The notes beneath the pieces were generated by a model that made no database searches, was not told the DNA's origin, and worked only from the letters and a program-made list of their open reading frames with translations. From Petrotoga sp. 9PW.55.5.1 (GTDB lineage: Bacteria > Thermotogota > Thermotogae > Petrotogales > Petrotogaceae), in contig NZ_AUPM01000066.1 in NCBI RefSeq assembly GCF_003265365.1, positions 1 through 61,126 on the forward strand: 61,126 nt of DNA, in the 5' to 3' direction. Below, piece by piece: positions 26,356 through 45,671 of this stretch (its first letter is position 1; the number at the start of each line of letters is the position of its first letter). The position numbers and the translations under genes are program-made.

Positions 26356-26435
26356 TTTTACTATTTTCATAAATTTAACGCACTGCTAAAAAAATTATGT
26401 TATGATGAAATCATAGAAAGTTAATAATAAAAATG

Positions 26436-26514
26436 CCTCTTTCTGTATAATGTCGATAATATGGTTCGACAGTTTCTACCAAACAGCCGTAAACTGTTTG
26501 ACTACAGTAAGAGG
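26436..26514 (+). ncRNA. Purine riboswitch aptamer, guanine type
   Basis: The conserved purine aptamer is complete. P1 pairs 26436-26447 with 26503-26514 (12 bp, one mismatch). P2 is 26451-26455 with 26467-26471 around an ATATGG-type loop, J2/3 reads TTTCTACC, and P3 is 26481-26486 with 26494-26499 around CCGTAAA. The base matching C74 of the xpt aptamer, which pairs with the ligand, is C at 26502 (GACTA), so guanine or hypoxanthine is predicted, not adenine. It lies ahead of the whole pur operon. Confidence 0.95.
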
Positions 26515-26536
26515 GGTATAAGGTATTTTATAATAA

Positions 26537-42214: not shown

Positions 42215-42475
42215 ATGGATTTGAAGGATTATTCATTTTATAGTTTGGCTGATGCAAAAGCAAGATTTTCTCAAGTTGTTGATGAAATAGAAGAGGAAAA
42301 TAAAAATATTATTATTACAAAAAATGGAGTCCCTAAAGCTGTAATGATGAACTATGAGAAGTTTATAAAATTGATAGATTTTATAGATGAAATTAGGGAT
42401 CTTTCACTTTTTGAAATAGAAGATGTTGAGGAGTATAAGCGTATTAAAAAATTTTTTGATTACTTTGAAGATTGA
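42215..42475 (+). CDS. Orphan antitoxin of the Phd/YefM family
   Basis: An 86-residue protein with the Phd/YefM fold: YSLADAKARFSQVVDEIE, then IIITKNGVPKAVMMNYEKF. These antitoxins bind DNA with the N-terminal part and neutralise a Doc or RelE/YoeB toxin with the C-terminal tail (DLSFFE-like acidic end is present). No toxin gene lies up- or downstream; the next gene is an ABC ATPase. It may act as a free regulator or be a relic of a pair. Confidence 0.85.
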   Translation: MDLKDYSFYSLADAKARFSQVVDEIEEENKNIIITKNGVPKAVMMNYEKFIKLIDFIDEIRDLSLFEIEDVEEYKRIKKFFDYFED

Positions 42476-42526: not shown

Positions 42527-43528
42527 ATGGCTCAAGTTTTATTAGAAAAGGTGAATAAGGTTTATCCCAATGGGTTTCATGCGGTAAAAGATGTAGAATT
42601 CAACATAGAAGATAAAGAATTCTTAGTTTTATTAGGTCCATCTGGATGTGGAAAGACTACAACCCTGAGGATGATTGCCGGATTAGAAGATATTACGGAA
42701 GGTACAATAAAGATTGACACGAAAGTTGTTAATGATGTTGAACCAAAAGACAGAGATATTGCTATGGTTTTTCAGAACTATGCTTTGTATCCTCATATGA
42801 CAGTTTATGATAATATGGCTTTTGGGTTGAAATTGAGAAAAACTCCAAAAGACGAAATAGAAAAAAAGGTTAGAGATGCATCCAAGATTCTTGGTATAGA
42901 ACATTTGTTAGACAGGAAACCAAAACAATTATCAGGTGGACAAAGACAGAGAGTTGCATTGGGAAGAGCAATAGTTAGAGATCCAAAAGTCTTCTTGTTT
43001 GACGAACCTCTTTCTAACTTAGATGCTAAATTAAGGGTTCAAATGAGGGCTGAGCTTAAAAAGTTGCAAAAAAGATTGGAAGCAACAGTAGCATACGTTA
43101 CACATGACCAGGTAGAAGCTATGACTATGGCAGATAAGATAGTTATTATGAACGAAGGATATATTCAACAAGTAGGAGGACCTTTTGAAGTTTATAATAA
43201 TCCTGCTAATATCTTTGTTGCTGGTTTCATTGGAACGCCACCTATGAATTTCTTAAATGTAAAAGTGATACGAGATAATGGTATTGAGGATATTTATGAT
43301 AAGAATCTTTTTGAAGATGCTAAGGAAACAAATACTCTAGAAAGTGTAGTAGACGTTGTCGAACCATTAGGGAGTGAAACTTTGCTTCATCTTACAGTAG
43401 GAAACCAGTCTATCACCGCTAAAGTTAGTCCGCAAACTACCGCAGAAGCCGGTAAAAATTTTAAAGTAGCTTTAGATATGAAAATGTGTCACGCTTTTGA
43501 TAAGGAAACTGAAAAAGCTATATTTTAG
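42527..43528 (+). CDS. Sugar ABC transporter ATP-binding protein (MalK/UgpC/MsmX type), orphan
   Basis: A 333-residue ATPase with Walker [10 protein letters not shown], signature LSGGQRQR, Walker [15 protein letters not shown] and switch THDQ. The C-terminal 100 residues form the short TOBE/OB domain of the carbohydrate (CUT1) importers. No permease or binding-protein gene is nearby, so it probably serves several transporters in trans, as MsmX does in B. subtilis. Strong GGAGGTG site; a terminator follows at once. Confidence 0.92.
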
Positions 43529-43543: not shown

Positions 43544-43574
43544 CCCATTGTGGTAATTAGCCACAATGGGTTTT
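43544..43574 (+). terminator. Intrinsic terminator after the MalK-type ATPase gene
   Basis: CCCATTGTGG (43544-43553) pairs perfectly with CCACAATGGG (43561-43570) around a 7-base loop, followed by TTTTCT. It ends the transcript 46 bases after the stop codon, so cas6 downstream needs its own promoter. Confidence 0.85.
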
Positions 43575-43624: not shown

Positions 43625-44410
43625 TTGGTTATTAAGATGGTATTTGGTTCAGTTGAGAGAGAAAGGATTGAACTACCTGTTCATTATAACAGACCTCTTC
43701 AAGGACTTTTTTATAATTTAATGTCTGATACAATGCCAAGCTATCATGATTTAGGAACAAGATCCGAAGATAAAAGATTAAAATTGTTTACTTTTTCAAG
43801 AATATATCCATATAATTCTTTTAAAGTAGAGAATAAGAAAATGATATTTAAAGGTTTGTTTAGCATTTATTTTGCTTCACCAATTGAAGAGCTTGCTAAT
43901 GCTGTTCTAAAAGCAATTAAAGATCAAAACACAGTAAGAATAGAAAAAAATTATTTTACTTTAGTGAAGTATGAAGTTATTGAAAATGAAATAGAAGAGG
44001 AAATATTAGTTAAAACATTATCTCCTATTACAGCTTATTCAACAATAATATTACCTAATGGAAGCAGATATACTCATTATTTTTCCCCTTATTCTACTGA
44101 TTTTAAAAAATTGATCGAAGAAAATTTGAAAAGAAAAGCCTCTGCTCTAAATATTGATACTGAAGGTAAAATGTTTCATATAGAACCGTACGGAGTTACT
44201 GAGAAAAATGAAAAATTACTTTTTTATAAAGATATTATAATAAAAGGTTGGACTGGATATTTTGTGTTAAAGGGTGAACCTGAATTGATATTTCTAGCTC
44301 TTAATTCTGGTTTAGGTGCAAAAAATGCTCAGGGATTTGGAATGGTTTTATCAGTAGAAAAAAATTATGTAATAGGAAGTAAAGTATTACAATTTTCTGA
44401 GAAAGGTTAA
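43625..44410 (+). CDS. cas6: CRISPR-associated endoribonuclease Cas6, isolated from any CRISPR locus
   Basis: About 261 residues. The C-terminal glycine-rich loop GLGAKNAQGFGMV is the RAMP/Cas6 hallmark, and the N-terminal ferredoxin-like half has LPVHYNRPLQGLFYNLM and KLFTFSRIYPYNSFK as in Cas6. His41 (SYHDLG) and nearby lysines could form the catalytic set, so activity is plausible. Cas6 cuts CRISPR precursor RNA in its repeat. No repeat array or other cas gene is in the window. TTG 43625 is 6 bases after GGGGGG; the frame opens at 43604. Confidence 0.88.
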   Translation: MVIKMVFGSVERERIELPVHYNRPLQGLFYNLMSDTMPSYHDLGTRSEDKRLKLFTFSRIYPYNSFKVENKKMIFKGLFSIYFASPIEELANAVLKAIKDQNTVRIEKNYFTLVKYEVIENEIEEEILVKTLSPITAYSTIILPNGSRYTHYFSPYSTDFKKLIEENLKRKASALNIDTEGKMFHIEPYGVTEKNEKLLFYKDIIIKGWTGYFVLKGEPELIFLALNSGLGAKNAQGFGMVLSVEKNYVIGSKVLQFSEKG

Positions 44411-44450: not shown

Positions 44451-45671
44451 GTGTGTCTAAAAAAAAATGTAATATATGCACAATCAGGTGGAGTAACAAG
44501 TGTAATAAATGCTTCTGCATATGGACTTATACATACTGCATTAGAAGATAAGAATATTGGAAATGTTTATGTTGGTATAAACGGAATAACTGGTGTTTTG
44601 GATGGAAAACTTTTTGATCTTACCAAAGAGTCTCCTGAACGAATTAATAACTTAAAAAATACTCCGGGTAGTGCATTCGGAACATGTAGACACAGATTAA
44701 AAGAAGGTGATGAACAAGGATTTAAATTATTGTTTGAAACCTTTGAAAAATATGGAATTGGTTATTTTTTCTATAACGGCGGAAACGATTCTATGGATAC
44801 TGCTTATAAAGTAGATAACTATGCCAAAAGTATTGGTTACGATTTAAACGTTATAGGAATTCCTAAGACAATCGATAATGATTTATATGGAACCGATCAT
44901 TCACCGGGTTATGGATCAGCTGCAAAATACTTAGCGGTTTCTATGTTAGAAGCGAGCATCGACACAAGAAGTATGAGCAGAGATTCAACTAAAGTATTCA
45001 TAATGGAAACAATGGGGAGACATGCTGGTTGGTTGGCAGCAGCAACTTCCTTAGCCAAATTGAATGGTGATTATGGTCCACATATCATACTCCTTCCGGA
45101 AAGAGTTTTTGAGGAAGATAATTTTGTTCAGAAGGTGGAAAATGAAGTTAAGAAAAATGGATACTGTACAATCGCCGTTTCTGAAGGCATTAAATATAAA
45201 AGCGGGGCTTTTGTTTCAGATATGGGATACACCGATAGTTTTGGAAATAGACAGTTAGGAGATGTTGGTAGAGTTGTTGCAAATATTGTGTTAACTAGAC
45301 TTGGTTTGAAAGTTCACGTGTGTATTCCAGATTATCTCCAAAGAAGTGGCGGTCATATTGTTAGTAAAACAGATAAAGAAGAAGCTATAAAAGTTGGAGA
45401 GAAAGCTTTTGAATATGCAAAAAATGGATTAAGCGGATATATGGTTACAATTAACAGAGTAAGTAATGATCCTTACAAAGTAGAATATGGAAAAGTTCCA
45501 CTATTTGAAGTAGCTAACAACACAAAATATTTACCTGAAGAATTCATAGATGATGAAGGTTATAATATGAGCAATAATTTTATTGATTACGCAAAACCTT
45601 TAATTACAGGAGAAAGTTATCCTGAGTATAATAACGGTATTCCAAATTACGTAACATTTCCTATTGAATAA
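44451..45671 (+). CDS. pfp: Pyrophosphate-dependent 6-phosphofructokinase
   Basis: A 406-residue PFK. The N-terminal AQSGGVTSVINAS, YNGGNDSMDTA, PKTIDND and METMGRHAGW motifs are present. In place of the GGDGS of ATP enzymes it has GGNDS, and a Lys replaces Gly in PKTIDND; both mark PPi as the phosphate donor. It would run glycolysis, reversibly, on pyrophosphate. GTG start after CGGGGG. It stands alone, with a terminator after it. Confidence 0.92.
   Translation: MCLKKNVIYAQSGGVTSVINASAYGLIHTALEDKNIGNVYVGINGITGVLDGKLFDLTKESPERINNLKNTPGSAFGTCRHRLKEGDEQGFKLLFETFEKYGIGYFFYNGGNDSMDTAYKVDNYAKSIGYDLNVIGIPKTIDNDLYGTDHSPGYGSAAKYLAVSMLEASIDTRSMSRDSTKVFIMETMGRHAGWLAAATSLAKLNGDYGPHIILLPERVFEEDNFVQKVENEVKKNGYCTIAVSEGIKYKSGAFVSDMGYTDSFGNRQLGDVGRVVANIVLTRLGLKVHVCIPDYLQRSGGHIVSKTDKEEAIKVGEKAFEYAKNGLSGYMVTINRVSNDPYKVEYGKVPLFEVANNTKYLPEEFIDDEGYNMSNNFIDYAKPLITGESYPEYNNGIPNYVTFPIE

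Follow-up and report, generated by a model that had tools for sequence, protein, structure and literature searches.

A stand-alone cas6 gene is inherited vertically at a fixed locus in most of the family to which Petrotoga sp. 9PW.55.5.1 belongs (all sampled genera but g6), so that an established protein family is found here in an unusual genomic state, core-gene-like and vertically inherited. Because the gene lies at a fixed spot away from CRISPR loci and is kept where most of CRISPR has been lost, its product is likely either to process CRISPR arrays at a distance or to do another RNA job. Our best reading, held at about even confidence, is that of an autonomous Cas6 that would process I-B-type repeats of unlinked arrays in trans. 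We found no paper describing this gene in the open-access literature, most subscription journals being outside the search. Within the window (the whole 61-kb stretch of DNA that was analysed), the gene and its immediate surroundings are as follows.

42527..43528, forward strand: sugar-type ABC transporter ATPase, the conserved upstream neighbour (synteny, 12 relatives)
43544..43570, forward strand: hairpin resembling a terminator, in the gap from the ABC gene to cas6 (consensus scan, 11 pairs)
43625..44410, forward strand: stand-alone cas6, 261 aa, TTG start, with Y30, H41, K53 and the Gly-rich loop GLGAKNAQGFGM
44451..45671, forward strand: PPi-dependent phosphofructokinase (PPi-PFK), the conserved downstream neighbour, 40 bases after cas6 (synteny, 13 relatives)

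Profile searches and the predicted fold identify the open reading frame as a genuine full-length Cas6, neither a chance frame nor a fragment. The protein matched Pfam Cas6_C (2.9e-33), Cas6_I-A (2.1e-7) and NCBIfam TIGR01877 (5.5e-31; 108.6 bits, cut-off 58.65), and passed the curated cut-offs of PF01881 (115.8, cut-off 23) and PF21350 (31.5, cut-off 27). The nearest models were those of Cas6b (PADLOC, 5.7e-58), and a sequence search of solved structures returned Cas6 relatives (best 4e-10). The AlphaFold2 model (pLDDT 89.7) has its best PDB matches all among Cas6 proteins, with a top Z of 27.7 to 3i4h over 223 residues; by model and alignment, the protein has the Cas6 fold of two ferredoxin-like domains and a C-terminal Gly-rich loop, whose invariant positions are G229, G231, G237, F238 and G239. 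The catalytic residues of Pyrococcus furiosus Cas6 are Tyr31, His46 and Lys52, and the corresponding predicted set here, by alignment, is Y30, H41 (in the same loop as the P. furiosus His) and K53; H41 is almost invariant in an alignment of 30 Cas6 sequences. A Cas6 with a glycine-rich loop and a plausible catalytic His, as proposed in an earlier note on this DNA, is thus what the profiles, the model fold, GLGAKNAQGFGM and H41 point to. The TTG start is preceded by a GGGGGG ribosome-binding site, and both are kept across the cas6 orthologs.

The note had also claimed that the 61 kb hold no CRISPR array and no other cas gene, and this was borne out by a repeat finder, Rfam and a gene search: the window contains no array, no other cas gene and no repeat-like element, including R1-like single copies (R1 being the I-B-type repeat described below). 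Rfam gave only a purine riboswitch aptamer (RF00167, 89.6 bits; 26423-26524, forward strand), which lies directly upstream of purE and purine biosynthesis genes. The setting is not that of a Cas6b in a I-B operon, with cas8b, cas7, cas5 and cas3 alongside, as no cas gene besides the stand-alone cas6 turned up in the window or across the 20-kb neighbourhoods from relatives. The hairpin upstream of cas6 was considered as a special element and rejected, as it resembles an ordinary terminator in the consensus scan of 11 pairs; by-eye reading of the alignment shows hairpins of altered sequence at the same intergenic spot in close relatives. A Phd/YefM-type antitoxin gene (42215-42475, forward strand; Pfam 5.3e-14) with no toxin gene adjoining precedes the ABC ATPase, and its position is kept in all 12 relatives with a complete neighbourhood.

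Outside genus g6, the stand-alone gene is present in every family genome sampled (14/14: G000-G009, G011, G012, G013 and G015, where G000 is the genome of the window), with orthologs 55–77% identical to the window protein. The earlier note had suggested checking whether the neighbourhood is conserved, and it is: the order ABC ATPase-cas6-PFK is kept in 13 of the 14 genomes, window included, and in the remaining one (G015) the contig breaks inside cas6, with the cas6-PFK adjacency still visible. The ortholog is absent from all seven g6 genomes, in which PFK is found beside a phosphate permease with neither the ABC ATPase nor cas6 adjoining. We considered g6 as an empty site and rejected it, since the different PFK neighbours there do not distinguish gene loss from a gene never present. 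A branch with 100/100 support separates the stand-alone clade from the rest in a tree of 39 Cas6 sequences, and within the clade the branching order is the one given by five neighbouring core genes concatenated.

The gene also evolves like its neighbours. Pairwise dN/dS values are mostly 0.04–0.25, similar to those of the neighbouring genes; the distant G000-G006 pair reaches 0.34, and core genes of that pair also reach 0.2–0.38. In G008/G009, Cas6 shows stronger conservation than PFK. All 13 full-length orthologs, from seven genera with saturated synonymous sites, keep an intact frame. Two lineages have lost the loop His: by alignment, the H41-bearing loop is deleted in G006 and replaced by a loop without His in G012, and both proteins still match Cas6 models strongly. 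Loss of the His and frame in relatives had been named in the earlier note as a sign against its proposal; the frame is kept in all full-length orthologs, and the His is missing from two genera. Some Cas6 enzymes, in Sulfolobus, cut without the loop His, so loss of activity in the G006 and G012 orthologs is only plausible from their sequences. The G012-G015 pair has a dN/dS of about 0.12 over 212 codons, G015 ending before the loop so that its His is unreadable.

To count Cas6 genes across genomes we used TIGR01877 as the Cas6 profile, because a probe with PF10040 found zero Cas6 in G000 (2.08 Mb, 79 contigs) and so missed every one there. By TIGR01877, G000 holds three Cas6 genes, including the window copy. 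The other two are on contig C60 (L003), which carries a type I-B operon of cas1, cas4, cas3, cas5b, cas7b and cas8b with its own Cas6 (L003 11195-11926) and an array of repeat R2 (GTTTTACCTTAACTATGTGGGATGTAAAT); the second Cas6 (L003 13391-14104) adjoins arrays of repeat R1 (CTTTTTATCCTACCTATAAGGAATGGAAAC). At only 29% and 35% identity to the window protein, these two are too distant for the window gene to be a recent copy, and the near-identical Cas6 beside an array that the earlier note had looked to as counter-evidence was not found, the best match elsewhere in the genome being at 35%. The gene is therefore lone in the window and in the relatives' neighbourhoods, as the note had it, but not in the genome, with two more Cas6 and arrays on C60. 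Folding of R1, R2 and the G008 repeats was no better than that of shuffles.

The cas modules have a different history. Between C60 and G013 (L083, L084), cas1 and the R1-side Cas6 share 95% identity, with dS of 0.14–0.31 (cas1 alone, 95% and 0.31), while core genes between these genomes are saturated; because of this identity and low dS against far more diverged core genes, the modules are taken to have moved horizontally, and recently, between genera. In G007, the site beside a hydantoinase gene that matches the C60/G013 cas site contains other genes and two R1 repeats.

Several family genomes carry one to four further Cas6 genes. In four (G004, G005, G007 and G011), the stand-alone gene is the only Cas6 found by TIGR01877, and in none of these does a Cas1 score above the family cut-off, G011 having a 42-residue fragment. 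In G005, a type III module (Cas10c, Cmr1, Cmr3, Cmr4, Cmr5, Cmr6) stands between two R1 arrays in a locus that lacks cas6; the Cas10 matches subtype III-C models. G007 has 54 R1 repeats; no effector was detected in searches for Cas1, DevR-type Cas7, PF05107-type Cas7 and RAMP proteins, and the DNA around its arrays showed no cas gene. About 50 of its R1 repeats form an orphan array (end of L077 and L078 24-3286; G007:C1:1134826-1138275) in this single-contig genome. G004 has repeat remnants, in the form of a few irregular R1 copies. In G011, none of eight family repeats match, a finder that recovers known arrays saw none in the 1.60 Mb scanned out of about 2.22 Mb, and the cas debris consists of cas3 and cas1 fragments only; its stand-alone Cas6 is intact, with H41 present. 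The gene thus occurs with arrays and no other Cas6 (G005, G007), with remnants (G004), with no known repeat (G011) and with further Cas6 genes (G000). Separately, short arrays of GC-rich tandem units (GGGCTCCGCCCTG...CCCGTT...AAATTCAAAAC) mimic CRISPR at L100 19363-19593, L078 5828-6155 and L084 317-816, similar units being present in three genomes of two genera.

The reading of a Cas6 acting in trans builds on what is observed: the protein belongs to the Cas6 family, its gene keeps its place, descends vertically and is under purifying selection, and it co-occurs with R1 arrays where it is the sole Cas6. Under this reading, arrays that are unlinked to the gene and built of I-B-type repeats (R1, CTTTTTATCCTACCTAT[A/G]AGGAATGGAAAC) would be transcribed elsewhere, the stand-alone Cas6 would bind their transcripts as its putative substrate and cut within the repeat, at a predicted site that leaves a handle such as AUGGAAAC, and the crRNAs may then load into the effector module that is present in the cell at the time. 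Service to arrays elsewhere, one of the two roles raised in the earlier note, is supported as a predicted role by G005 and G007, in which the sole Cas6 co-occurs with I-B-type arrays. According to a recent classification, Cas6 supplied in trans apparently serves the majority of type III systems (PMC12669027), and G005 is similar in having Cas10/Cmr and arrays, no local cas6 and a Cas6 elsewhere; in the published systems that Cas6 comes from other CRISPR-cas loci, whereas the source in this family is a fixed housekeeping locus without CRISPR. Some observations caution against this reading: the G005 Cas10 fits III-C, which a review lists among the subtypes whose maturation is not by Cas6 (PMC8616872), G007 has no detected effector, G006 and G012 have lost the loop His, and no R1-like repeat was found in four of the 14 genomes that encode the stand-alone Cas6 (G008, G009, G011 and G012, the last 80% complete).

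The other role raised in the note, on another RNA target, is favoured by retention in G011, where the scan found no array, and by purifying selection in a His-less lineage, and these two observations keep a CRISPR-independent function alive as the main rival reading. A domesticated Cas6 would then cleave, or only bind, a chromosomal non-coding RNA or mRNA, with the His-less lineages as RNA-binding-only versions; we regard this as possible but doubtful. It is correspondingly tentative that Cas6 was exapted in the family ancestor for a core function in RNA processing or RNA binding that no longer depends on CRISPR; if true, this would explain why the locus is fixed, why evolution is slow, how the gene survived in G011 and why the loop His is missing from two lineages. 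The intact gene in G011 with its cas3 and cas1 fragments, the dN/dS in the lineage whose G012 copy has no His, and the stronger conservation of Cas6 than of PFK in G008/G009 all argue for such a function, and there is precedent in Sulfolobus solfataricus Cas6-3, which processes non-coding RNA (PMC4041471). That protein has an RNA gene adjacent (PMC4041471), whereas none was found near the stand-alone cas6. No candidate RNA was found: the five R1-like single copies in G011 do not exceed chance (3–7 for shuffled motifs), and the window has none. The loss of cas genes in G011 may be too recent for the gene to have eroded. Moreover, the only Cas6 substrates generally known are CRISPR repeats and repeat-like RNAs.

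It is also conceivable, if unlikely, that the gene is a general reserve Cas6 with no fixed partner, selected as modules and arrays repeatedly come and go by horizontal transfer, some without their own Cas6, and currently redundant in, for example, G000, G001 and G002. The exchange of cas modules between genera and the additional Cas6 genes of several genomes fit such a back-up; Cas6 is, however, usually repeat-specific, and G008 and G009 have other Cas6 genes and repeats wholly unlike R1. This explanation also overlaps with that of a Cas6 acting in trans, making the two hard to tell apart. Neutral decay of a relic from a lost CRISPR locus would agree with the lack of an adjoining cas gene in any relative and with the two losses of the loop His, but it is very improbable, being largely refuted by the selection data already (13 full-length orthologs in frame across seven genera, at saturated synonymous sites and with dN/dS in the housekeeping range).

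Among characterised proteins, P. furiosus Cas6 (PDB 3i4h, 3pkm) shares the fold of the window model (Z 27.7 and 26.6) and, by alignment, the positions of the Tyr, loop His and Lys; it is about 22–30% identical and is a characterised CRISPR nuclease, whereas the activity of the window protein is predicted and its neighbourhood is that of core genes. Equally close are the Cas6-fold paralogs PH0350 and a P. furiosus Cas6-related protein (PDB 3qjj, 3ufc; Z 27.4 and 27.6). PH0350 has been described as non-catalytic, in which the orthologs without the His may resemble it; the window protein, by contrast, keeps the loop His.

Normally, cas genes move together with their operons. In this family, cas6 behaves as a vertically inherited core gene that in some members has outlived the rest of CRISPR. 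As the genomes with the stand-alone gene as sole Cas6 include some that have arrays (G007, G005) and one in which none was found (G011), action on arrays in trans and a CRISPR-independent role are both testable, and the family is a natural setting in which to ask whether Cas6 can serve a whole cell as a shared processor while its CRISPR modules change, or can join ordinary RNA metabolism.
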